Assembly: GCA_023703675.1 (NCBI GenBank)
Contig: CP097974.1
Coordinates: 1,136,656-1,194,046, forward strand
Direction: 5' to 3'
From: SAR86 cluster bacterium
GTDB taxonomy: Bacteria; Pseudomonadota; Gammaproteobacteria; Magnimaribacterales; AG-339-G14
DNA: 57,391 nt
Shown: positions 6,255 through 57,341 of the stretch, in pieces
Position numbering within the stretch: position 1 is the stretch's first letter
How the letters are laid out: each line of letters starts with the position of its first letter
The notes under the pieces: model-generated
What the model saw: only the letters and a program-made list of their open reading frames with translations
What the model was told of the DNA's origin: nothing
Database searches by the model: none
Made by a program: the position numbers and the translations under genes

Positions 6255-7118
6255 AAGCGAGAGAAGATATTTTCCGTAAGAGCTTTTAAGGAGCGGTTGC
6301 GCTAAGCTCTCAAGAGAATCTGCATTAATCCATTTCTTTTTATAAGCAATTTCTTCTGGACAAGCCACCATAAGGCCTTGTCTTTTTTGAATAGTTTCTA
6401 TAAAACTACCGGCTTCATGCAGACTCTCATGAGTTCCAGTATCTAGCCAAGCAAATCCGTGATCTAACAGTTCGACTTCAAGCGTCCTATTTTCCAAATA
6501 CCAATTATTAACATCAGTAATCTCCAACTCACCTCTTGATGAAGGCTTTAAAGATTTAGCAACTTCCGAAGCTTCTGAGTCATAAAAATATAACCCTGTT
6601 ACGACGTAATTACTTTTGGGAGATTTAGGTTTTTCTTCCAAACTTAAAACTTTATTCTCATTATTGAATTCAACTACACCGTATCGATCTGGATCATTTA
6701 CATGATAAGCAAAAACCTTGGCTCCCTCCTGGAAATTACTTGCCGCATCTAATCTTTCAGGCATTGACGCTCCAAAAAAAATATTATCTCCTAAAACTAG
6801 AGCAGAGCTCTTATTATTTAAGAAATTTTCAGCGATTATAAGAGCTTGAGCTATACCGTCTGGAGAAGCTTGAGACTCGTAACTAAAATTTACTCCCCAC
6901 TGAGAACCATCACCCAGCATATTTTTAAATAATCCTAAATCGCTGGGTGTAGAAATTATTAAAATGTCCTTTATGCCAGCCAGCATCAGAGTGGTAATAG
7001 GATAATAGATCATTGGCTTGTCATAGACTGGCAACAACTGTTTTGAGATGCAATTGGTAATGGGATACAAGCGAGTACCCGAACCTCCTGCCAATACAAT
7101 TCCCTTTCTACTTTTCAC
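6246..7118 (-). CDS. rmlA: Glucose-1-phosphate thymidylyltransferase
   Basis: 290 residues, full RmlA length. It makes dTDP-glucose from dTTP and glucose-1-phosphate, the entry step to dTDP-deoxysugars. Seen: nucleotidyltransferase loop [14 protein letters not shown] (about 6-19), [23 protein letters not shown] with the metal-binding Asp, [20 protein letters not shown], and [10 protein letters not shown]. The start overlaps the end of rmlB by 11 bases, so it is the last gene of the minus-strand operon and the committed enzyme for the whole cluster. Confidence 0.95.
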
Positions 7119-8115
7119 CGCTTATATATTTTTCAAAGTACCATGATACCGTTTTTTCTAATCCAGAATCGAAGGTTTCCGAAGGCTGCCAATTAAGCTC
7201 TTTTTTTATTTTTGAAGTATCTAAATTGTAGCGAAAATCGTGACCTGGCCTATCTTGCACGAATTCTATTAATTGGGAATAATTTCCTTTTTTGCTGGGA
7301 GATAACTTATCTAAAATAGAACAAATTTTTTGCGTTATCTCAATATTTGAAGTTTGATTATTTCCGCCAATGTTATAGGTTTCACCAACTTTTCCTTTAT
7401 CTAAAACTTCGCAAATAGCTTCGCAATGATCCTCTACAAAAAGCCAATCTCTTATATTTTTGCCATCGCCATATATTGGGAGTTTTTTCCAGTTTAAGCA
7501 GTTACTTATCAAAAGAGGAATAAGTTTCTCTGTGTGCTGATGTGGACCATAATTATTAGTACAATTAGTAATGTTAACTGGTAATTTAAAAGTTTCTGCC
7601 CAAGCTCTCACTAAATGATCACTTGCTGCTTTTGAAGCCGAGTAAGGACTATTAGGTCTATAAGCGCTAAATTCTGTTGATTTATCGTCATCTAACTTTA
7701 AGGATCCAAATACTTCATCAGTTGAAACGTGCAAGAACTTAAATTTTTCCTTTTCTTCAAAGGACGAAGATAAATAAAACTCTAAGGTGGCGGAAAGCAG
7801 ATTAAAAGTTCCAGTTATATTTGAATTTATAAAGGCCTCTGGAGAGGTTATAGAATTATCAACATGAGTTTCTGCCGCAAAATTCACTATCGATCTGGGT
7901 TTGTGCTTAGATAAAACTTCCTTAAGTAATGTTTTGTCGTTAATGTCCCCTTTAACGAAAAAATAATTTTTATTGTCTTCAATACTTGATAAGTTTTTTA
8001 AATTTGATGCATAGGTTAAATTGTCAAAATTCAATACGGACTCATTATTTTTTTTGATCCAACGTAAAATAAAGTTAGAACCTATAAAACCTGCACCACC
8101 AGTCACTAAAATCAT
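7108..8115 (-). CDS. rmlB: dTDP-glucose 4,6-dehydratase
   Basis: 335 residues. It converts dTDP-glucose to dTDP-4-keto-6-deoxyglucose using bound NAD+. Visible: Rossmann [10 protein letters not shown] (5-14), [21 protein letters not shown], catalytic Thr-Asp-Glu in STDEVFG, YSASK (YxxxK), and the substrate loop [15 protein letters not shown]. It provides the 4-keto intermediate that the RmlC-like, SDR and E1-like proteins on the facing operon could use. Nine bases separate it from the glycosyltransferase upstream. Confidence 0.95.
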
Positions 8116-8124
8116 GGTTATATA

Positions 8125-8979
8125 TTATCCTGTAAAACTTTCTTTGTTTATTTCGCTTAAAACGCCTTTAAAAAAAGAAAAATATTTTGCTCTTTTTCTT
8201 TTTGAAAAAATTATTTCAATCGAAAATAATTGAACGAATGAAAAAATGAAATTTCTTGTTAATGGAAAATTTATTTTGTGTTTTTTTTGGGCATAAACCC
8301 TTGATTTGCCCATATGAAATCCCTTCAAGCTTGCTATTTCCGGACTACGGCCACTAGAGCTTCCTCCTTCATGAACCATTATCGCAGAAGGAATATTATA
8401 CAAAGGTCCTATTGTATTTCTTAATCTTATAGAAAGATCATCGTCTTCATGAAAAAGAAAGATATTCTCATCGAATCCTCCAATTGACAAAAATTTAGTT
8501 TTTTCAATTAAAAAAGCTGAACCAGCTATTACTGTTACCTCAGAATCCTCGGTTGGCGGAACTCTTGACATCCAATCTTTTCGGTTCAAAAGAACTGACC
8601 TTCTTTTGAATGTTTGTTTTCCCTTAGAATCAAGTATTTTTGGAGAAAAAGCGCTAGCATTTTTATATTTTTGAGAAGCTTGATAAAGGTTTTCAATTGT
8701 TTTTTCTTTCAGAATACAATCTGGATTTACAAAAAAAAGATAATCTCTACTCGATGCTTTCGCACCTAAATTGCAAGCTGCTCCAAATCCTAAATTACTC
8801 TTAGGACTTAATATCTTTAAATGTGGCTTATTTGAAAATTCTTTCGTAGTTTCGAAGTCTTGGGAATTATCTACAATAATGATTTCGCAATCATCTGAAA
8901 CATTTTTAATAAGCTTTTCCAGAGAACTTTTGCTTCTAAAACTTATCGTTACAAGAGTAATTCTCTCTTCAAAAGACAT
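8125..8979 (-). CDS. GT2-family glycosyltransferase, rhamnosyltransferase-like
   Basis: 284 residues with the GT-A fold of family 2: VTISFRSKSSL at the N-terminus, IIIVDNS, GFGAACNLGA, then FVNPDC standing in for the DXD metal motif, and the acceptor-side IGGFDENIFLFHEDDDLSIRL. Such enzymes add deoxysugars to lipid-linked glycans on the cytoplasmic face. It likely uses the nucleotide sugar made by the surrounding cluster; the acceptor is unknown. ATG start; 4 bases after the upstream membrane gene. Confidence 0.87.
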   Translation of the reverse strand: MSFEERITLVTISFRSKSSLEKLIKNVSDDCEIIIVDNSQDFETTKEFSNKPHLKILSPKSNLGFGAACNLGAKASSRDYLFFVNPDCILKEKTIENLYQASQKYKNASAFSPKILDSKGKQTFKRRSVLLNRKDWMSRVPPTEDSEVTVIAGSAFLIEKTKFLSIGGFDENIFLFHEDDDLSIRLRNTIGPLYNIPSAIMVHEGGSSSGRSPEIASLKGFHMGKSRVYAQKKHKINFPLTRNFIFSFVQLFSIEIIFSKRKRAKYFSFFKGVLSEINKESFTG

Positions 8980-8983
8980 GTCT

Positions 8984-9454
8984 TTAATTCTTTTTAGTCC
9001 GCAAGGAAAGAATGAGAGAAATAATTAAGAAAATTAGAATGTATGGCACTCCTTCAGCTCCTGGAGTGACTCCATTAGTATAGTCAGGATTAAGAGATGG
9101 GAAAAAATCTGTTAAAGGATAAATACCTCTCAATCCCCACTCGAAGATGTTAATTAATAACATTAGAGGAATAAATCCCCTATATTTTATCAAAACCATA
9201 ATGGTAAGGCCTGTCCTAATAACTTGTTCTAAACCCCAGAGAGAGAAAAATAGATAAATTAAATTCATCGGGTCGGGAGATCCCTTTATAGGCATCACAT
9301 TCGCAATATCGTGCAGTCCAAACTCCCAAAAAAGTAAATGAATTGTGCTTCTCCAAATTAACAATCCTGTATACAAAATAAGTGCGTAAAAGGCTAAGAT
9401 ACTACCTTTGTATTCATTTGGATTTTCTGGAAAAATTTTACTTAACAAGCTCAA
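8984..9454 (-). CDS. Four-helix membrane protein heading the sugar operon
   Basis: 156 residues from a TTG start preceded by GAGGGG. About four hydrophobic segments with conserved-looking aromatic and charged spots (LIWRSTIHLLFWEFG, NIFEWGLRGIYP). I do not recognise the family. It is first in the operon with the GT2 glycosyltransferase, rmlB and rmlA, suggesting a membrane role linked to surface glycan assembly, but nothing in the sequence proves that. Confidence 0.55.
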   Translation of the reverse strand: MSLLSKIFPENPNEYKGSILAFYALILYTGLLIWRSTIHLLFWEFGLHDIANVMPIKGSPDPMNLIYLFFSLWGLEQVIRTGLTIMVLIKYRGFIPLMLLINIFEWGLRGIYPLTDFFPSLNPDYTNGVTPGAEGVPYILIFLIISLILSLRTKKN

Positions 9455-9541
9455 CTAATTTATCCCCTCGGTCAACGAATTACAGTAAGATTTTATAATA
9501 TCAGCTTTTGATTACCGAAATAGATTTCAATTTCTTTTAAG

Positions 9542-10594
9542 TTAGTTTTTTAAAAGCTTCTCGCAATTATTTTTTTTAAGAAATAAGTTCACTTTATTTT
9601 TTTCTTTATTATCTAATTTTTCAAATTCTTCATTAATCCAATTAAGACATTTAACTTGATAAGGAAAAGTTTGTTGAGTCCACTCAGAATCATCTATTAA
9701 AGCCTTCCAAGTTTTTTCATCTTTCAAAGTTGCTTCTTTGTTAGCTAATAGAGCAGGGGCATAAACCTTACCAATTTCTTTAAAAATATTACTAAGTGAC
9801 TCAGGTACTTCGTCTAATATCCAATCTTGATCTGAAACTTCAAGGCCTGATAAATCTTCCATTAAACTGACCCAAGCAACTGTTCTTGGTGAAATCTCGT
9901 GAGCTATTTTCCTGGAGGTGGGATCGAATCCAACAAGCTGACTCAACTGTCCAAACATTGCAAAATCAGCTGAAGCTGGCCTTTTACCGAGCAAGAAAGG
10001 GAAAATAGAAAAATGTTTTTCTAATAAGCTTAAAAATCTTTTAAAACTTTTTTCAATGATTTCGGCAGTGATTTCACTAGAACCAACCACTCCTAATCTA
10101 CTAACTTGTCTTTCAGAAATAAATTTTTTAAATGAAGCCAACGAATCTTCATCAAGATTCACGATTTGATTTAATGGCAAAAGTGTTCCGGCATTGTCAA
10201 TATCCTCATCGAAATGCCATCGATAATGAAACATGTACTTTGTTACCCATTCATCAGCAAAATCTTCAAGAAGATAATTTAAAAAGCTTAAAAATTTATC
10301 TTTAGGAATACATTTTCTGATTTCAAATTCTGTTTCGAAGCGTCTTATGAGAGGCGTTGAATCTGTATAGGCCTTCAATTCTCCAGTTTCATCGGGAAGA
10401 AGAAAAGTTGGTTGAAGATTTGGTTTTGCAGGTTCAATGTTTAAATGAGATAAAGATCCATTGGTTAGTAATTCTTCCGGGTTGCCCCAAATGACCTTGT
10501 AAGGTATTTGTCTATATCTCATCAAAGCAATCATCTTCCTAGTGTAAGGAGATGGTGGACTGCCTATAAAAGTAATTCGAGTGTTTTCACTCAT
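9542..10594 (-). CDS. Glutathione S-transferase-like protein, long form
   Basis: 350 residues. The N-terminal thioredoxin-fold domain shows GSPPSPYTRKM (about 11-21), in the place of the usual GST active-site Ser/Cys loop, and DSTPLIRRFE, the gamma-glutamyl-binding turn. A helical C-terminal domain contains the family segment LGKRPASADFAMFGQL. It is roughly 130 residues longer than a standard GST, with an uncharacterised C-terminal tail. It overlaps DUF1330 by 8 bases and is last in an operon with a haloalkane dehalogenase, consistent with conjugation or dehalogenation of small electrophiles. Confidence 0.8.
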   Translation of the reverse strand: MSENTRITFIGSPPSPYTRKMIALMRYRQIPYKVIWGNPEELLTNGSLSHLNIEPAKPNLQPTFLLPDETGELKAYTDSTPLIRRFETEFEIRKCIPKDKFLSFLNYLLEDFADEWVTKYMFHYRWHFDEDIDNAGTLLPLNQIVNLDEDSLASFKKFISERQVSRLGVVGSSEITAEIIEKSFKRFLSLLEKHFSIFPFLLGKRPASADFAMFGQLSQLVGFDPTSRKIAHEISPRTVAWVSLMEDLSGLEVSDQDWILDEVPESLSNIFKEIGKVYAPALLANKEATLKDEKTWKALIDDSEWTQQTFPYQVKCLNWINEEFEKLDNKEKNKVNLFLKKNNCEKLLKN

Positions 10595-10997
10595 GATTTT
10601 TTGTCTCGATGTTTAACTGCCCTTTTAATCCTGCAGTACGATGCACAGATATCTCTGCATATTCAGGGCTCATCATCATTTCGAGCATTTTTCTTCTACT
10701 GGGGTACTGAGCTATTGCAACTGTATCCCATAATTCTTCAACTTCTCCTAACATCAACCTGCTTACTTCTGCGCCAAATAAAACTTTCCCGCCGGTGTTC
10801 TCAACCAATTTAGCGACTGCTAAAGCATATATTTGATAGGCTTCTCTACCCGTGAGATCTGTTGTTCTGCCATCCTCATACTCAGCTTTATCCTTGAATT
10901 TTAAAAGATTGAGCATTGAAATTGGACTGTCTATATCCCCTTCTACGAAACCTTTCATCTGCTCTTCCGATGGAATAACTTTGTTCTCTACTTTCAT
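10587..10997 (-). CDS. DUF1330-family dimeric alpha-beta barrel protein
   Basis: 136 residues. The pattern of DUF1330 is seen: PISMLNLLKFK, REAYQIYALAVAKLVENTGGKVLFG, and YPSRRKMLEMMMSPEYAEISVHRTAGL. These proteins adopt a dimeric alpha-beta barrel fold; no reaction is established. It sits between the dehalogenase (4-base overlap, ATGA) and the GST-like gene (8-base overlap), so all three are translationally coupled. Confidence 0.8.
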   Translation of the reverse strand: MKVENKVIPSEEQMKGFVEGDIDSPISMLNLLKFKDKAEYEDGRTTDLTGREAYQIYALAVAKLVENTGGKVLFGAEVSRLMLGEVEELWDTVAIAQYPSRRKMLEMMMSPEYAEISVHRTAGLKGQLNIETKNHE

Positions 10998-12067
10998 TTT
11001 CTCTCCTGCTGCTTAATAAAATTTATCAAAAGCTCTGATAATTCTTTGGGTCTAGTCCATTGATAAAAATGACCCCCACCAATATGTTCAGCACTTTTGG
11101 CATTTGGACACATATTTAAAACATCTCGCTCTATTCCATTAGTAACAGGATCATCTCCAGCAAAAACACTTAAAAAAGGTTTGTCCCAATGCTTGAAAAC
11201 GTCCCTAGCGATTCTTTGGGCTTCCAAGGACTCATCGGGAATTGTTGGAACGTGACTTGGCATGGCTCGAGGACCCATTTTGTATTTATCATTTGGGAAA
11301 GGGGCATCGTAAGCCTTAGCTAGTTGTGATTTAAAAGGAAAATAGTTACTTATCCCTAGATTAACGAAAGCCAGATATAAAAGTCTTTGAATTGTTGAAG
11401 GCTTACCCATACTTTGCTCCATCAGAAAACCTATTGGTAAATCAACTGTATCCCAACAAAATTTTTGCCAATACATAAATTTCAAAGCTGGATGAGTTTT
11501 TTTACTATCCATTTGTCTTACTTGCTTAAACATTGTAATTGGAGAGAGTTTTAAATTACTTTCTCTAAAACTGTTTACCTTGTCTACTACATCAAAAGGT
11601 ACGTCTGGATTGTAAGGCAGTCCTGTATTTCCCATGGCTACTTTATTAAAGCGATCAGGTTCATTTGCGACCATCCTCAACCCAATCAACCCTCCCCAGT
11701 CTTGACCAAAAAAAGAAATATTTTTAAAGTCATTTGTTTTTAGCCAATTAGTCATCCAATCTACTTGTCTCTGAAAACTATAGTCCTCTCTTGCAGCGGG
11801 TTTGTCAGATTTTCCGTACCCTGGAAGATCTGGACAAATTACTCTAATTCCAGCATCAGAAAAAAATGGAATCATCTTTGTATACAGGTAACTCCAAACA
11901 GGTTGTCCATGCATGCATAAAATAATAGGTCCATCCTCAGGGCCAACATCAATATGATGAATCCTCAGCTCTGAATCATCATGAGTCGAAATTGTTGTAT
12001 AACAAGGTTCGTAAGGATAATCCTTTAGATTAGCAAAGGATTTTTCGGGGGTTCTTAAAATTTCCAT
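10994..12067 (-). CDS. Haloalkane dehalogenase-like alpha/beta hydrolase
   Basis: 357 residues. It has the nucleophile elbow GQDWGG with Asp123 (esterases have Ser) followed by Trp124, a halide-stabilising residue of haloalkane dehalogenases; the acid is probably Asp306 in GDDPVTNG and the base His333 in GGGHFYQW. The oxyanion-side loop is HGQPVWSYLY, with Gln55 where DhlA-type enzymes have Glu or Asn. Predicted reaction: hydrolysis of a carbon-halogen bond to alcohol and halide; substrate unknown. Epoxide hydrolase is the main alternative. A strong AGGAG precedes the ATG. Longer than the usual 300 residues. Confidence 0.85.
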   Translation of the reverse strand: MEILRTPEKSFANLKDYPYEPCYTTISTHDDSELRIHHIDVGPEDGPIILCMHGQPVWSYLYTKMIPFFSDAGIRVICPDLPGYGKSDKPAAREDYSFQRQVDWMTNWLKTNDFKNISFFGQDWGGLIGLRMVANEPDRFNKVAMGNTGLPYNPDVPFDVVDKVNSFRESNLKLSPITMFKQVRQMDSKKTHPALKFMYWQKFCWDTVDLPIGFLMEQSMGKPSTIQRLLYLAFVNLGISNYFPFKSQLAKAYDAPFPNDKYKMGPRAMPSHVPTIPDESLEAQRIARDVFKHWDKPFLSVFAGDDPVTNGIERDVLNMCPNAKSAEHIGGGHFYQWTRPKELSELLINFIKQQERK

Positions 12068-12084
12068 TCATCTCCTAAGAATTT

Positions 12085-12112
12085 TTGACAAATAACTGTC
12101 AATTGATAGAGT
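12085..12112 (+). promoter_or_regulatory. Candidate sigma70 promoter for the MBL-fold gene
   Basis: TTGACA at 12085-12090 and TAGAGT at 12107-12112 with a 16-base spacer; transcription would begin near 12119, a few bases before the ATG at 12125. It lies in the divergent gap with the dehalogenase operon. Confidence 0.4.
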
Positions 12113-12124
12113 AATTCAAAATTT

Positions 12125-13183
12125 ATGTTTAGGTTTATAAAATATTCTATATCAATATTTATAGTTTTAACTATTTTAGTTTTCACTTTGCTGAGAATAC
12201 CTTCAATACAAGATAGCATTATAGATTTTGCCATTGCCCAACAGATAAATGCTGAATCTCCCTTAACAACAGAAGATGCCTTAAGCGCAATTGTTTGCGG
12301 CTCTAGGTCTCCTTTGCCAAATCCTGACAGAGCTGAAACTTGTATCCTCGTTAAGGCAGGAGAAAAAGTTTTTATAGTCGATACGGGTGATGGAAGTGCG
12401 AGTAATTTGAGAACTTTTGGAATACCCTTTGAATTCGAAGCAATTTTAATTACGCATCTACATTCTGATCATTTTTCAGATTTGCAAGACTTTCACTTGG
12501 GCAGCTGGGTATCTGGACGGAATGAAAAATTAAAAGTTTTTGGTCCTGAAGGAATAAAAAAAATAACAGATGGGTTTGAACAGGCTTATGCATTGGATGC
12601 TCAATATAGATTCGATCATCACGGTGATTCCGTACTTGTCAAAAGCGCAAACGGTTATGAAGCTATTACAATCTCCCCTAGTGAATCTCCTTTTTACGAT
12701 GACGGAGATCTTAAAATAACTGCATTTTTGGTGGAACACGAACCTGTGAGCCCTTCACTTGGTTTTAGATTTGATTACAAGGGAAGATCCATAGTGTTTA
12801 GTGGAGACACTATCTATAGCGAAAATCTTCTCAAATATGCTAAAGACGCAGATGTATTATTTATGGAAGCCCTCTCGATGGACTTAATTAGCCGATTACA
12901 AAAAGCGCAAGAATCTATTGGCAATGAAAGGAATGCAAAAATTATGTTCGATATACAGGATTATCATATCTCTCCTAAAGACGGAGCTAGATTGGCAAAA
13001 AAGGCTAATGTGAAACACTTGGTGTTTTATCACCTAGCCCCAGCACCTGTTATTTCCCTTATGGCTGAAGTATTTACCAGAGGAGTAGATGAAATTTTTA
13101 GTGATTTTACTCTAGCTGATGATGGCACTCATGTTGTGCTTCCGAAAAGTTCAAAAGAAATAAAAATTTCTAGTATTAACTAA
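12125..13183 (+). CDS. Exported or membrane-anchored metallo-beta-lactamase-fold hydrolase
   Basis: 352 residues. An N-terminal hydrophobic segment (about 8-24) acts as signal or anchor. The MBL metal motif is THLHSDHFSD (HxHxDH at 111-116); further ligands are the Asp in FSGDT and a late His in FYHLAP. The layout resembles RNase Z/arylsulfatase-type MBL hydrolases, but a periplasmic location argues for a small-molecule ester or lactone substrate. The stop codon shares bases CTAA with the antiparallel stop of the next gene. Substrate not predictable. Confidence 0.8.
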   Translation: MFRFIKYSISIFIVLTILVFTLLRIPSIQDSIIDFAIAQQINAESPLTTEDALSAIVCGSRSPLPNPDRAETCILVKAGEKVFIVDTGDGSASNLRTFGIPFEFEAILITHLHSDHFSDLQDFHLGSWVSGRNEKLKVFGPEGIKKITDGFEQAYALDAQYRFDHHGDSVLVKSANGYEAITISPSESPFYDDGDLKITAFLVEHEPVSPSLGFRFDYKGRSIVFSGDTIYSENLLKYAKDADVLFMEALSMDLISRLQKAQESIGNERNAKIMFDIQDYHISPKDGARLAKKANVKHLVFYHLAPAPVISLMAEVFTRGVDEIFSDFTLADDGTHVVLPKSSKEIKISSIN

Positions 13184-13569
13184 CCTTCACTATTTTCTTC
13201 ATCGTCCATTTCTTTCCAGACTTCCTCTAAAACTTTTCCAGAAGTAACTGCATTTGGCCAGCCCGCATAGTGAGCTAAATGAAAAATTATTTCTTCTATT
13301 TTTTCCTTACTTAAACCTAGATTTCTAGCTCCACGAAAATGTAAACGCAATTCGTTTTCTCTATTCAAAGCTATCAATCCTGCTAGAGTTATCATACTTC
13401 TTTCTTGAATTTCTAAGCCGGGCCTTGTCCAAACTGTTCCAAATAAATTTTCTATAGTATGAGATCTAAAATCTGTAGAAAAACTTCCTTCCGCTTTGTG
13501 TAGAAAGTTTAATTTTTTTAAAATTTCAGTTCCCTTCTTTAATCTTTTTTCATCGCTTTCAAAAGACAT
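13180..13569 (-). CDS. Carboxymuconolactone decarboxylase-like protein
   Basis: 129 residues of the CMD/AhpD-like all-helical fold: ERSMITLAGLIALNRENELRLH, then EEIIFHLAHYAGWPNAV. There is no CxxC pair, so it is not an AhpD-type thiol peroxidase and groups with the gamma-carboxymuconolactone decarboxylase branch, whose members act on many small molecules. Last of a six-gene minus-strand operon starting at 18128. A good Shine-Dalgarno (AGGAG) precedes the ATG. Confidence 0.82.
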   Translation of the reverse strand: MSFESDEKRLKKGTEILKKLNFLHKAEGSFSTDFRSHTIENLFGTVWTRPGLEIQERSMITLAGLIALNRENELRLHFRGARNLGLSKEKIEEIIFHLAHYAGWPNAVTSGKVLEEVWKEMDDEENSEG

Positions 13570-13578
13570 AATCTTCTC

Positions 13579-13998
13579 CTATTTTAATAAAAACCAACCA
13601 ATGTCAACTAACATGATCATAGTGACTATAAGACCCACCAGATAAAATAAACTACGAAAGCTTGGATTTTTTCTCGTTGCAATTGAGTAGTAAACGGCCG
13701 TATAGATGTATCGAGCTAACACATAGACCAATACCAATCTCGCAAGTCTCAGCGGGTCCATGCTTAGCAAAATACTTATTATTGCCGCTCCTAAAAACGG
13801 AACAATATTTTCTAAAGAATTTTTAAAAGCTCTGTCACTTCGAAAAACAAATGATTCAGGTCCTAAGTCAGAGTTTAAAATTCCAGGCGTATACTTTTTT
13901 TGAGATCTTGAAGCGCCCATAGCTATAATAGCTTCTATAACTACCAAACTAAGAAGAGCCCAAATTCCAAAAAAACTTAAATAGTAGACTTCAAACAT
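13579..13998 (-). CDS. MAPEG-family membrane protein
   Basis: 139 residues with four hydrophobic helices and the MAPEG signature RAFKNSLENIVPF (usually RAxxNxLEN), then ARYIYTAVYY. MAPEG proteins include membrane glutathione transferases and eicosanoid enzymes; most bacterial members are uncharacterised. It lies 9 bases upstream of the CMD-like gene and 19 bases after the SDR gene. A second MAPEG gene is at 33642. Confidence 0.82.
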   Translation of the reverse strand: MFEVYYLSFFGIWALLSLVVIEAIIAMGASRSQKKYTPGILNSDLGPESFVFRSDRAFKNSLENIVPFLGAAIISILLSMDPLRLARLVLVYVLARYIYTAVYYSIATRKNPSFRSLFYLVGLIVTMIMLVDIGWFLLK

Positions 13999-14017
13999 TA
14001 ATCTTATTTTAAAATGG

Positions 14018-15061
14018 TCAGAGAGCTTTTACTTGATTTAACTCTATCAAACTTTTAGCTGAAGCTATCAAGGCTTCCTCACCTGATCTGGGCTCCCAGC
14101 CCAATAAATTTTTTGCCTTAGAATTATCTAACTGTTTCGTTCTGCCGAGCTGCTCAGCAATAAAACCAGCTGTTTTACTAAAAATTCCCAGAAACTTTAT
14201 CAGTAAGTCCGGAGCCGTTCTTTTAGGCAATCTCTTTTTGTATTCTGGAATAGCCTCCCTGAGGATTCTTGTCCATTCAGGCATACTTAAAGTATTAGCA
14301 CTCGCAATGAATCTATTGCCAGGCGCTTTATCGGAAGTCATCGCGAGGACGTGTAAATCAGCAACATCGCGAACATCTACCATTCCAAAGCTAATTTTAG
14401 GGACTAGAGGAAGAGCTCCATTTAATAACATTTGAATTGACTGGACGCTTGATCCGATATCTGATTCAAGAATTGGCCCAAGAACCCAAGAGGGATTAAT
14501 AACAGCTAACTCCAAGTTTGAATCTACATTTTCGACAAAATCCCAAGCTGCTTTTTCTGCATAAGTTTTAGATTTACTATACGCTGAGCAATCCTGAGCT
14601 TCTGGATTTGTCCAATCATTCTCGTCATAACTTGATTTTTCTTCACCGTTTAAAATTGCAGCCACCGAAGAAGTTAAAACTACTCTTTCGACTTTAGCTT
14701 TAGAAGCAGCTTTCAGAACCCTTAAAGTGCCTTCACGGGCTGGAGTTATTAACTCATTTTCATCTTTAACGTCTAAGGAAACAGGTGAGGCCACGTGAAG
14801 AACATATTTACATCCAGAAACTGCATCATCCCAACCTTCATCTTTGGTAAGATCGGCACTTGTCCATTCGACTTCAACTCTATTTAATCTTTCATGTTGC
14901 GAGCCAGCTTTGTTTAAAATTTCATTTAAATCAGTAACTCTATCTAAATTTCTGACGGTAGATTTAATTTTATAGCCTGCGGCAGCAAGCTTTAAAATAC
15001 AGTGGGTTGCGATAAATCCTGAGCCGCCAGTTACTAAAACCGTTTCATTTTCATTAGTCAT
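14018..15061 (-). CDS. Dihydroflavonol-reductase-like extended SDR (aldehyde/ketone reductase)
   Basis: 347 residues. Rossmann motif VTGGSGFIATHC (about 10-21), RNLDR for NADP phosphate recognition, TSSVAAI with the catalytic Ser, and YSKSK (YxxxK). This matches the DFR/cinnamoyl-CoA-reductase/aldehyde reductase group, which reduces carbonyls with NADPH. It follows the exported methyltransferase by 9 bases. The natural substrate is unknown. Confidence 0.83.
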   Translation of the reverse strand: MTNENETVLVTGGSGFIATHCILKLAAAGYKIKSTVRNLDRVTDLNEILNKAGSQHERLNRVEVEWTSADLTKDEGWDDAVSGCKYVLHVASPVSLDVKDENELITPAREGTLRVLKAASKAKVERVVLTSSVAAILNGEEKSSYDENDWTNPEAQDCSAYSKSKTYAEKAAWDFVENVDSNLELAVINPSWVLGPILESDIGSSVQSIQMLLNGALPLVPKISFGMVDVRDVADLHVLAMTSDKAPGNRFIASANTLSMPEWTRILREAIPEYKKRLPKRTAPDLLIKFLGIFSKTAGFIAEQLGRTKQLDNSKAKNLLGWEPRSGEEALIASAKSLIELNQVKAL

Positions 15062-15070
15062 TACATTTCC

Positions 15071-15844
15071 TCAAATCTTTTGAAATAAAAAGGTAAATCT
15101 ATCACTTTCTCCGATTTCCAGATACTTCTCCTGGTCTACCTCTTTGAGCCTCATTACTGGAGGCAGGGTCCATACCCCCTTTGGATGATCTTTAGTATCT
15201 TTAATATTCGAGTTTACTTCACTTTTGGAAATCAATTTAAAGCCGTATTTTTCTATATATTCGATGGCGTAATTCTCAGTTACATACCCGGTTTTTTTCA
15301 TATCTTGAACCGAAGTATTCTCTTTGGCCCTGTGTTCGACGACTCCGAAAATCCCTCCTTCCTTCAGTGATTGGTATGTATTTGTCATGATCAGATCCCA
15401 ACTAGGCCCAATCCAATTGTGTAAATTTCGAAAAGTTAAAATGGCGTCTACTGAATTTTCTTCAGAATACTTAGAATTTAAAGAAACTACTTTAACTCGA
15501 TCATAAATTGAATTACTGGAAAGCTTTTTTTCAAAACTATCTCTGATTCTCTTAGCAAACCCTCCCATTGAGGGATCGAAATGAGCAGCAATTAGCTGCC
15601 CATCTTCTCTTAGATAGCTAGCTAGTATTTCTGTGTACCATCCTCCTCCTGGAGAAAGTTCAACAACTTTCATGTTGGGCTCTATTCCAAAAAAAGACAG
15701 AGTTTCATAAGGATTGCGATGAACGTCTCGCGCGATACTTTTATTTGATCTTACGTCACTCTCTACAGCATCTTTCAATGGATCTGCTATAGCAAGGGGA
15801 TTTAAAAATAAAATTAAGAAAAATATTAAATACTTTTTTTTCAT
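15071..15844 (-). CDS. Exported predicted class I SAM methyltransferase
   Basis: 257 residues. A signal peptide is visible (basic start, hydrophobic 5-16, cleavage expected after AIA at about residue 20). The mature part has the SAM motif VVELSPGGGWYTEIL and a post-motif segment FRNLHNWIG, in the manner of the COG4798 predicted methyltransferases. A SAM-dependent enzyme with a secretion signal is odd because SAM is cytosolic; the family is nonetheless widespread with this feature. It sits 3 bases after the ceramidase-like gene. Confidence 0.8.
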   Translation of the reverse strand: MKKKYLIFFLILFLNPLAIADPLKDAVESDVRSNKSIARDVHRNPYETLSFFGIEPNMKVVELSPGGGWYTEILASYLREDGQLIAAHFDPSMGGFAKRIRDSFEKKLSSNSIYDRVKVVSLNSKYSEENSVDAILTFRNLHNWIGPSWDLIMTNTYQSLKEGGIFGVVEHRAKENTSVQDMKKTGYVTENYAIEYIEKYGFKLISKSEVNSNIKDTKDHPKGVWTLPPVMRLKEVDQEKYLEIGESDRFTFLFQKI

Positions 15845-54817: not shown

Positions 54818-56431
54818 TTATTTTTTGGGCCCGTGCATGTACATTTGTAAAGCAGACACAAGAGAATTCATGAACCAATAAAGAACTAGTCCGGCTGGAA
54901 AAAAAGCAAAAAGTACGCCGAAAATAAACGGCATGTATTTGAAAACATTCACCTGTATGGGGTCGGTTCCAACGGGCTGAGGTTGAAGCTGTTGCATTCC
55001 CCACATTGCTAAAGTATTGAGTATAGGTAATATGAACAAAGGGTCTCTAGCCGACAAATCACTTATCCAAAAGAGAAAAGGGGCATATCTCAACTCAACA
55101 GTCTCTATGAGCACCCAATAGAACGCTAAAAAAAACGGAAGTTGCAGAATCATTGGCAGACAGCCTAGCGCCGGATTTACTTTTTCTTTTTTGTATAAAT
55201 CCATCATAGCCTTAGATAAGGCCTGTCTGTCGTCAGCATATCTTTCTTGAATATCTTTTAGTAGGGGCTGAACCTCCCTCATTTTTCCCATGTTTTTATA
55301 AGAAACGTAAGAAAGAGGCCATAACAAGACTTTTATGAGTATCGTGACTAAAATTATCGACCAACCCCAATTTCCTACTAAATTAAAGAAAAAATTCATT
55401 GCTTGATACATTGGTTGGCCAATCCACCACAAGAATCCATAATCTACCGCTAGATATAATTCCGGATGAGCTTTGGTTAACTCGCTTTGAATTTTTGGTC
55501 CAGAATAAAGCTTGTGGCTGAAAACAAAACTTTCGTCAGGTCTTAAAACTTTTGTTTCACCAACAATTCCTACAGAGAAGTCACCACTCTTTTTTTGTTT
55601 GGCTTGATAAACATAATTTTCCCCAGATTCAGGAACAATTGAAGACAAGAAATAATGTTGCAAAATTGCAGCCCAACCATTAGATGAACTTTGTTTGAAC
55701 CTATTTTCTTGTATGTCATTGAAAGGGACTTTAATGTAATTTTCTTCTTCAGTTCTGAAAGCCGGCCCTAGATAGGCAAAACTAGATGGATCTGTAAATC
55801 CGGACCCTTTCGCTTCTACTACTTCAGCAGACCTATCCAATTTTGAATATGCTGCTAATTTTATTTCTTCGGACGATAAATTTTGAACTGTATCTTTAAT
55901 CTTTAGCAAATAATCTTTTGACTCAAAGCTAATGAATTTCTTAAACAAAAGATCATCGGATTTCTTTTCAAATACATAGACATCATTTAGCCCGTCTTTA
56001 TAGTTTTCGCTGAGCCTAAAAATGGAATCAGAATCTATAGTTTTATCTAAAAAGGCAAATCCACTCGTATGAGAGTACCTTTCCGAGCCGCACTCATTTA
56101 AGAGCAATTTATTGTCACTTGAGCCAGAAGTTTTTGGATAATCTGTAAGTTCAAAATAAGATATTTTGCCTGAAGGTAATTCAACTTTAATTTTCCACAC
56201 ATCATTTGAAATTAAAAATAGATTGTTTGTTGAGCATGTTTCTTCAAAGAGAAATACTTCTTCATCAATGATGTCGCTTCTAGATACAAATGCCTCTTCT
56301 TCAACTAATTGTGAATACTCACTATCATTTATATCCAATTCTGTAATGAATTCTTCTTGAGGAGGGTTGTAATTGATTAAAAGCAGATAGCTTAGGAAAA
56401 TAATTGAAAATATTAAAAAATACCTTTGCAT
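54818..56431 (-). CDS. yidC: Membrane protein insertase YidC
   Basis: 537 residues. N-terminal membrane anchor (2-20), large periplasmic domain (about 60-330), and the core insertase helices: LVGNWGWSIILVTILIKVLLWPLSYVSYKNMGKM, PALGCLPMILQLPFFLAFYWVL. Inserts and folds inner-membrane proteins alone or with SecYEG; ATP synthase c is a known client. Coupled with yidD by one shared base. Confidence 0.95.
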   Translation of the reverse strand: MQRYFLIFSIIFLSYLLLINYNPPQEEFITELDINDSEYSQLVEEEAFVSRSDIIDEEVFLFEETCSTNNLFLISNDVWKIKVELPSGKISYFELTDYPKTSGSSDNKLLLNECGSERYSHTSGFAFLDKTIDSDSIFRLSENYKDGLNDVYVFEKKSDDLLFKKFISFESKDYLLKIKDTVQNLSSEEIKLAAYSKLDRSAEVVEAKGSGFTDPSSFAYLGPAFRTEEENYIKVPFNDIQENRFKQSSSNGWAAILQHYFLSSIVPESGENYVYQAKQKKSGDFSVGIVGETKVLRPDESFVFSHKLYSGPKIQSELTKAHPELYLAVDYGFLWWIGQPMYQAMNFFFNLVGNWGWSIILVTILIKVLLWPLSYVSYKNMGKMREVQPLLKDIQERYADDRQALSKAMMDLYKKEKVNPALGCLPMILQLPFFLAFYWVLIETVELRYAPFLFWISDLSARDPLFILPILNTLAMWGMQQLQPQPVGTDPIQVNVFKYMPFIFGVLFAFFPAGLVLYWFMNSLVSALQMYMHGPKK

Positions 56432-56700
56432 TATTGAACGTTTTTCTTATCTACTTCAGGGACATGATCTATCCCGCTTCCACCTAAAGGATGGCATTTA
56501 GAAACACGTTTTATAGCAAGGTAAAGGCCTTTTATTAAGCCATGAGTTTCAAGTGCTTCTATCGCGTATGAGCTGCAAGTAGGATGATATCGACAATTGT
56601 TACCTAAAAGAGGGCTTAAAAACAATTTATAAATTTTTATAAGAGATAATAAAAATTTTACTGCGTAAGTTTCGACTTTATTAAAAATTTTAAAAAACAT
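56431..56700 (-). CDS. yidD: Membrane protein insertion efficiency factor YidD
   Basis: 89 residues. Signature CRYHPTCSSYAIEAL (36-50) and GLYLAIKRVSKCHPLGGSGIDHVP. Assists YidC-dependent insertion. The first codons overlap a ghost of the rnpA stop (56690-56692), which shows that rnpA and yidD once overlapped directly before the tandem duplication just upstream. Confidence 0.93.
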   Translation of the reverse strand: MFFKIFNKVETYAVKFLLSLIKIYKLFLSPLLGNNCRYHPTCSSYAIEALETHGLIKGLYLAIKRVSKCHPLGGSGIDHVPEVDKKNVQ

Positions 56701-56831
56701 TAAGCTTGGATTCTATCTTTCTTTTCAATTTATTAATATTTTTTTTTCTGATTTTAAATAATCTTTTATTTTGCATATCGATAAAAAAATTTAATCGCAC
56801 CCAAAAAAATATTATTCCTTGACAGCTCTCA
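56657..56831 (-). repeat. Tandem duplication across rnpA-yidD, downstream copy
   Basis: Copy holding the intact yidD start and a decayed rnpA 3-prime end. Aligns with 56832-57011 from AAGTTTCGACTTTATTAAAA onward at an offset of 178, growing to 182 bases after a 4-base deletion. The two copies touch near 56831. Confidence 0.85.
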
Positions 56832-56835
56832 TTTA
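56690..56835 (-). pseudogene. Ghost of the rnpA 3-prime end
   Basis: Minus-strand translation ends NINKLKRKIESKLNVF and stop; the real RnpA ends NIHKLEKKIEFKLNDF and stop. A 4-base deletion further upstream (in the segment matching QEIRNN) breaks the frame. It is only the last 45 codons or so, without a start. Its stop falls inside the first codons of yidD. Confidence 0.8.
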
Positions 56836-56877
56836 CTTCTTTGCAAGTTTCGACTTTATTAAAATTTTAGAAATCAT
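56830..56877 (-). pseudogene. Ghost of the yidD 5-prime end
   Basis: An ATG at 56875-56877 begins ATGATTTCTAAAATTTTAAT, matching ATGTTTTTTAAAATTTTTAA of yidD, but one base is lost and the frame ends after about 14 codons. It overlaps the last codons of the intact rnpA, as expected from the ancestral overlap. Confidence 0.75.
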
Positions 56878-57011
56878 TGAGCTTGAATTCGATCTTTTTT
56901 TCCAGTTTATGAATATTATTTCTTATTTCTTGTTTTGAATAATTTTTTATTTTATTTATCAATAAAAAAATTAAATCATACCCAAAAAAAATTTGATTCC
57001 TTGCAAGTTCC
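56832..57011 (-). repeat. Tandem duplication across rnpA-yidD, upstream copy
   Basis: Copy that keeps the intact rnpA end and a broken yidD start. See the partner repeat at 56657-56831. The right boundary is soft; similarity fades near 57011. Confidence 0.85.
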
Positions 57012-57205
57012 CTAGCGCTTCTTTTTATGTAGTTTCTTCTGGCAGCTAAAGAAAGATTTTTTTTAGGAACTATTAAACCTAATTTAATTTCTTCAAGATT
57101 ATTTTTTTTTAAAATAATTTTTAAGTAACCATGTTTAACGATCAGATCAGGTTCTTCAAAAATTTTATCAAATTGAGACTTTCCTCTAAGCGGAGTAACT
57201 AACAA
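56867..57205 (-). CDS. rnpA: Ribonuclease P protein component
   Basis: 112 residues. RnpA hallmark RRNYIKRSAREL (RNR region), preceded by KLGLIVPKKNLSLAA and by LRGKSQFDKIF at the N-terminus. It binds the RNase P RNA to mature tRNA 5-prime ends. TTG start at 57205, one base after the rpmH stop. The last 45 codons lie in the tandem duplication. Confidence 0.92.
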   Translation of the reverse strand: MLVTPLRGKSQFDKIFEEPDLIVKHGYLKIILKKNNLEEIKLGLIVPKKNLSLAARRNYIKRSARELARNQIFFGYDLIFLLINKIKNYSKQEIRNNIHKLEKKIEFKLNDF

Positions 57206-57206
57206 T

Positions 57207-57341
57207 TTATGCAGCTAGTTTTTTTCTACCCTTATTCCTTCTACTTTTCAGTACAAGCTTTCCCCCAACCGAGGAATTCCTTTTTCTAAAGCCATGTTTC
57301 CTTTTTCTTTTAATTTTACTGGGCTGGTATGTTCTTTTCAT
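57207..57341 (-). CDS. rpmH: 50S ribosomal protein L34
   Basis: 44 residues: starts [19 protein letters not shown] and ends NKGRKKLAA, the highly basic L34 pattern. A GTCCTT on the plus strand (AAGGAC on the minus strand) lies just upstream of the ATG as ribosome binding site. It co-transcribes with rnpA. The next conserved gene, dnaA, would lie beyond the right edge. Confidence 0.93.

Follow-up and report, generated by a model that had tools for sequence, protein, structure and literature searches.

Tandem duplication of the rnpA-yidD junction in a SAR86 bacterium and a reciprocal split of conserved bases between its two copies

The rnpA-yidD junction of this SAR86 cluster bacterium has been duplicated in tandem, and the bases conserved among its congeners are divided reciprocally between the two copies. 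The duplication was found in the window, by which we mean the whole stretch of 57,391 nucleotides that was analysed. In origin, the duplication is an ordinary kind of mutation. The reciprocal split of conserved bases, which was seen twice, lifts the case above an ordinary duplication. Judged from sequence comparison, the two copies probably divided their duties after the event: the ghost tail of rnpA would have been retained as the leader of yidD, and the intact rnpA tail would have been released from that role.

The genes are arranged on the minus strand in the order rpmH, rnpA, a 166-nt gap, yidD and yidC (Table 1). The identities of L34, RnpA, YidD and YidC were confirmed by Pfam. The genome is one contig of 1,194,046 bases, which begins with dnaA (DnaA domains of Pfam, with E values as low as 1.2e-70), and the window is located at its end. 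Positions 56667-57003 were reported by TRF as a two-copy tandem array (period 181, 82% matches, score 470); all other TRF arrays in the window have a period of at most 22. The start-to-start spacing is 177-181 nt in the main ungapped repeat families. A tandem duplication over the rnpA/yidD junction had been placed here by the first-pass annotation, which proposed an alignment of the two copies as a check. The local alignment of copy against copy scored 175, far above the maximum of 44 among dinucleotide-shuffled pairs (n = 500). The two head-to-tail copies are thus well above chance, and the duplication is confirmed at that position. The identity of the copies varies with the alignment, being 82% by TRF and blastn and 76% over 141 columns of the multiple alignment in the rnpA part.

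Table 1. Features at the duplicated rnpA-yidD junction (positions in the window)
Feature	Position	Strand	Basis
rpmH (L34), upstream neighbour, 1 nt from rnpA	57207..57341	-	Pfam PF00468 E 1.3e-20; ORF list
Intact rnpA, 112 aa, listed with a TTG start; the 3' part belongs to copy 1	56867..57205	-	Pfam PF00825 E 1.4e-16
Copy 1: intact rnpA 3' end and ghost yidD head	56845..57003	-	blastn core
Ghost yidD head: ATG kept, frameshifted, stop after 14 codons, MISKILIKSKLAKK	56833..56877	-	ORF reading
Gap from rnpA stop to yidD start, 166 nt, duplication-derived	56701..56866	-	ORF coordinates
Far ghost rnpA, decayed, carrying the net 1-nt and the 4-nt deletion; congener base kept at 0/11 polarisable differences	56761..56836	-	alignment, polarised sites
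Copy 2: ghost rnpA tail and intact yidD 5' end	56667..56821	-	blastn core
36-aa ghost ORF, GTG start, ends 11 nt inside yidD	56690..56800	-	ORF list
Near ghost rnpA, 60 nt upstream of yidD; congener base kept at 7/7; proposed yidD leader	56701..56760	-	polarised sites
Intact yidD, 89 aa	56431..56700	-	Pfam PF01809 E 3.8e-28
yidC, 1-nt overlap with yidD	54818..56431	-	Pfam PF02096 and PF14849; ORF list

Ghost ends of both genes had also been claimed, and the gap does contain a yidD head with a shifted frame and a decayed tail of rnpA. The separation of 166 nt was reproduced as well: on the minus strand, the last base of rnpA is 56867 and the first of yidD is 56700. Compared with intact rnpA, the ghost rnpA has a net 1-nt deletion and a 4-nt deletion, and after these its last frame is open again. 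This frame (ORF 56690-56800) carries the tail NINKLKRKIESKLNVF and ends 11 nt inside the real yidD. The real rnpA ends 11 nt inside the ghost yidD start, so that both copies still show the 11-nt overlap. The annotation had taken these 11 nt as the ancestral overlap. The value stands for the time of the duplication but not for the genus, because, among the five congeners that have both genes, the overlap is 20-23 nt in four, and G003 has a gap of 69 nt instead.

The junction was then compared with that of the relatives. Exact gaps were determined for 32 relatives of the same family, taken from 34 with an RnpA match; the fragment matches of G011 and G032 were left out. The rnpA-yidD gap is between -29 and +22 nt in 30 of the 32, which indicates that the junction is undisturbed in the relatives and that the state in the window is derived. 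The exceptions are G003 (+69 nt) and G018 (+171 nt), a relative in another genus of the family with a duplication of its own. The 171-nt gap of G018 holds a decayed rnpA tail (alignment score 83 for gap against rnpA tail; none of 2000 shuffles came up to it, and their maximum was 54). A wider profile search of 203 genomes of the order gave a YidD match in 165 and an RnpA match in 169. Among the matches listed, at least 70 genomes have both genes adjoining, and in 68 of these the model ends are 13-80 nt apart. The outliers among the matches listed are the window genome and G018, with distances between model ends of 232 and 228, respectively. For G003, whose YidD row is absent among the matches listed, the model-end distance is about 144.

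The overlap or close spacing expected of the relatives was thus found in 30 of the 32. The contrary observation, a conserved ORF in the gap of relatives, was not made, because gaps of -29 to +22 nt leave no room for one. Two open ORFs of 36 and 14 aa in the window might suggest that the gap encodes a small protein or RNA of its own. However, both ORFs are explained as ghost ends, the 36-aa ORF has no Pfam match at E 0.001, and no comparable gap exists in 30 of the 32 relatives. In the two larger gaps, those of G018 and G003, no gene-strand ORF of at least 10 aa that starts in the gap and ends at most 40 nt past the yidD start was found. No signal above chance came from scanning the region for RNA families (Rfam), promoters and terminators, and no Rfam family reached its gathering score. 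A product encoded by the gap is therefore extremely improbable.

A tandem duplication inside a gene usually breaks that gene. A duplication that spans a junction can be tolerated, because one end in each gene leaves both genes whole. Further cases were looked for by a scan for tandem copies 40-700 nt apart in 1,489,391 bases, 8,000 of them N. The sample was composed of the window and 12 stretches of the same genome (289,391 bases, 24% of the genome) and of sixty 20-kb stretches of 18 other genomes (1.2 Mb), with the G018 stretch deliberately included. In-frame repeats within one open frame (L151, L186, L187, and L210) were set aside. The first of them (L151 9466-14753, G000:C1:49466-54753) consists of 15.6 copies of a 339-nt repeat with 74% matches and no indels, and sits in one open frame of about 9.2 kb (6334-15537) for a giant repetitive protein. 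Four copy pairs were not within a single open frame: the window, the rnpA-yidD junction of G018 (score 57), and two near-exact pairs in the window genome. No match came from 20 regions that were resampled with a first-order model.

One of the near-exact pairs (L155 6762-7471, G000:C1:446762-447471) is an exact 355-nt tandem unit over the overlap of an FAD-binding monooxygenase gene and an acyl-transferase (FabD-like) gene. Both genes are whole, and a 101-aa ghost tail stands between them. This duplication is either a recent event or an unmerged assembly overlap. The other (L157 12263-13371, G000:C1:652263-653371) is a tandem duplication of about 551 nt (558 aligned, 99.6%). Its unit covers the 3' end of a tRNA-Arg (12219-12294) together with the 3' part of a convergent gene that has no Pfam match. 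What lies between the whole copies is a ghost tail of the gene and a ghost of the tRNA 3' end. The first-pass annotation had regarded a tolerated insertion as unusual in an otherwise gap-free genome. Its unusualness is weakened by these two larger, near-exact, junction-spanning duplications in the scanned 24% of the genome. The tolerance needs no special cause, because such duplications break neither gene and two more are present in the genome.

Both near-exact duplications could be unmerged assembly overlaps. An artefact of this kind, in which contig ends of two strains were joined and their overlap was left unmerged, might also be suspected in the window. The genome is in one contig, the near-exact duplications of 355 and about 551 nt are flush, and the record matching G018 is titled a MAG. 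In such an artefact, however, both copies should be working gene parts. The duplication in the window is hard to explain as an unmerged overlap, since it includes a copy that is a broken gene end, with frame-breaking deletions. Also, the identity of 76-82% is far from that of a one-strain unmerged overlap, and the same architecture appears in a separate assembly of another genus. An assembly artefact is therefore considered very improbable.

The proposed division of duties is carried by the distribution of the conserved bases. At the sites where the intact and ghost copies differ, it was determined which copy has the base agreed on by the congeners (a minimum of 4 of 5 congeners in the window genome and of 5 of 6 in G018). 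Differences that fell short of this agreement were not used. Also left out of the counts were the sites at which neither copy shows the congener base: 2 far and 3 near ones in the window genome, and 3 far ones and 1 near one in G018. Far sites are more than 55-60 nt upstream of yidD and near sites are within that distance. In the window genome, the congener base is kept by the intact and the ghost copy at 11 and 0 far sites and at 0 and 7 near sites, respectively (Fisher's exact p = 3.1e-5, with the 55-60 nt cut chosen on the data after looking). In G018, the same cut gave 31 and 3 far sites and 1 and 9 near sites (p = 2.9e-6). The conserved copy switches at the same distance from yidD in both cases, and the degeneration of the copies is complementary in both genomes. 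Nine cuts from 45 to 90 nt gave p values of 3e-5 to 0.004 for the window genome and 3e-6 to 0.0017 for G018, with few informative near sites (7 and 10, respectively). With agreement lowered to 4 of 6 and a cut at 75 nt, G018 showed intact-to-ghost counts of 29:4 far and 7:10 near (p = 9e-4).

The near sites are upstream of the yidD start, and therefore the coding of YidD cannot explain their conservation in the ghost. The ghost frame of G018 contains upstream stops and has no ATG, GTG or TTG start giving at least 10 aa. The near conservation there is therefore unlikely to reflect a ghost peptide being encoded. The undisturbed junctions were analysed at the codon level as well. Over the final 60 nt of rnpA ahead of yidD, the four overlapping congeners use the same codon in 72 of 87 comparisons, against 57.8 expected from the amino-acid make-up. 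This excess ranks 1st among 74 overlapping windows, and when G003 was added it still ranked first (1 of 80; 94 of 127 against 82.5 expected). The excess points to a constraint at the nucleotide level. No clear signal was obtained from the same test in three other genera, where the ranks were 11/113 (five genomes) and 16/105 (seven genomes) for the genus of G018, 15/68 for g3 and 33/73 for g2. Within this comparison, the excess codon identity near yidD is clear only in the genus of the window genome.

A rival reading is a plain neutral tandem duplication, with a gap made up of harmless debris and with conserved bases distributed as they are by chance. Geometry alone makes junction-spanning duplications tolerated, two more are present in the genome (at the monooxygenase/acyl-transferase overlap and at the boundary of tRNA-Arg with the convergent gene), and the region shows no RNA family, promoter or terminator above chance. 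On the other hand, neutral decay would be expected everywhere, yet the ghost keeps 7 of 7 near bases and loses 11 of 11 far ones, and G018 switches at the same distance. We regard neutral debris as unlikely.

According to the proposed history, the lineage of this species underwent a tandem duplication of about 180 nt. The duplicated segment would have started in rnpA around the codons for KRSARE and ended about 34 nt inside yidD, the exact ends being blurred by decay. Since one end lay in each gene, nothing was broken: rnpA is complete at the first copy and yidD at the second, and where the genes once overlapped there is now a spacer of 166 nt. In the ancestral arrangement, the final 55-60 nt of rnpA would have served both as the RnpA C-terminus and as the translation leader of yidD. 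Afterwards, the upstream part of the ghost rnpA would have been without a function and decayed. The final 55-60 nt of the ghost, still beside the real yidD, would have continued as its leader and been conserved, and the intact rnpA tail, no longer a leader, would have been free to change faster. The conserved 55-60 nt would accordingly be expected to act in the expression of yidD.

The coupling of RnpA and YidD/YidC synthesis may be altered, as the first-pass annotation had suggested. Termination-reinitiation from rnpA to yidD is presumably weakened by the duplication. A reporter study in E. coli and H. volcanii found that about 20 nt between stop and start nearly abolish termination-reinitiation, and that the last 15 nt of the upstream gene sufficed for coupling, if translated, in two E. 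coli pairs (PMC10666635). A coupled pair has a stop-start overlap or a very short distance, and the real rnpA and the real yidD are 166 nt apart. Because about 20 nt already have such an effect in the reporter work, coupling between the two real genes should be weak, unless the ghost ORF, with its 11-nt overlap with yidD, is itself translated.

The age of the duplication was estimated from a tree built on the 3' ends of rnpA. Within the genus, the intact copy and the ghost of the window genome form a sister pair (support 1.000), which places the duplication after the divergence from the sampled congeners. The intact and ghost copies of G018 group only weakly (support 0.316). In G018, the ghost shares 64% identity with the intact copy of the same genome and 65% with the congener G009, so that this duplication may date further back within its genus. 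Between the two genera, the ghosts share only 51% identity. From the tree placement and this low ghost identity, the two duplications are best read as independent.

The divergence of the copies could also predate their meeting, if a diverged rnpA/yidD junction of another strain had been inserted beside the resident one. The diverged bases do form one contiguous block (the intact tail, the ghost yidD head and the far part of the ghost), which looks like about 178 nt placed between unchanged flanks. However, the sister position of the two copies with full support is against such an insertion, and the boundary is less sharp in G018. The ghost part has frame-breaking deletions compared with the intact copy, so that decay after arrival would be needed anyway. 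The insertion of a foreign allele is considered improbable. An incoming foreign rnpA, suggested by a ghost tail more like that of the relatives, was also considered and rejected on the tree and the far-zone counts.

The best reading of the process remains duplication followed by a division of duties, that is, duplication-degeneration-complementation on a gene overlap. The duplication-degeneration-complementation (subfunctionalisation) model was reportedly put forward by Force et al. in 1999. As in that model, two copies of a multi-purpose sequence each retain a complementary part of the ancestral functions. In contrast to it, the unit here is the overlap between two genes rather than a gene, and one function is coding (the RnpA C-terminus) and the other is the presumed leader of the next gene. 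A likeness to mitochondrial tandem duplication-random loss is also seen, in that the genome is packed and gene remnants are left as spacers. However, the gene order is unchanged here and only gene ends were duplicated, so that no complete second gene copy was lost. In the refactoring of phage T7, overlapping genes are said to have been engineered apart. There, too, the overlap was duplicated and each gene was given its own copy of the shared stretch, whereas the present case is natural and the unneeded half of each copy then decayed. In Salmonella, gene overlaps are disrupted in some lineages, according to one study (PMC3843671). The likeness lies in overlaps broken in some lineages; the difference is that the word duplication is absent from the main text of that study and no ghost ends are described in the passages considered. 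A search of open-licence literature gave, among the titles and abstract starts listed, no description of overlap loss by junction duplication, nor anything on the evolution of the rnpA-yidD junction among papers on yidD or rnpA.

A broader proposal is made tentatively. The last 55-60 nt of rnpA may be a cis-acting yidD expression element inside the RnpA coding sequence in these SAR86 genera, and junction duplication may be a recurrent natural route by which it is split, a natural refactoring with the ghost ends as working leaders. The junction may also be hit more often than others: one clear case was found among the 32 targeted relatives at rnpA-yidD, against none elsewhere in the 1.2 Mb from 18 other genomes. 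The duplicated copies free two constraints on a shared stretch, so that sequence alone shows which bases serve the upstream protein and which serve the next gene, and the same boundary was obtained from two cases. If the proposal is true, junction duplications are a natural experiment for finding regulatory signals hidden in coding sequence, and some spacers called pseudogenes in streamlined genomes deserve to be treated as working leaders.

Some minor observations on the junction were made in other genomes. The 69-nt gap of G003 (L006) was tried as a third duplication on by-eye similarity and was rejected on shuffle tests, with no ghost detectable against shuffles. The score was reached by 1105 of 2000 shuffles for the gap against the rnpA tail, by 1203 of 2000 for the whole unit and by 128 of 2000 for the overlap copy against the yidD head. 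A direct-repeat scan upstream of yidD in 80 loci gave a signal in three: L038, which is the G018 locus, L064 and L108 (a 24-nt match). L064 (2756-2904), from a cyanobacterium, has three short repeat copies at 63-nt spacing just upstream of yidD, and no rnpA-like ORF was seen near the repeat. In the SAR86 families f3 (several genera) and f4, yidD and rnpA are on different contigs or far apart in many genomes among the matches listed, and the rnpA-yidD linkage appears to be broken in many of them.
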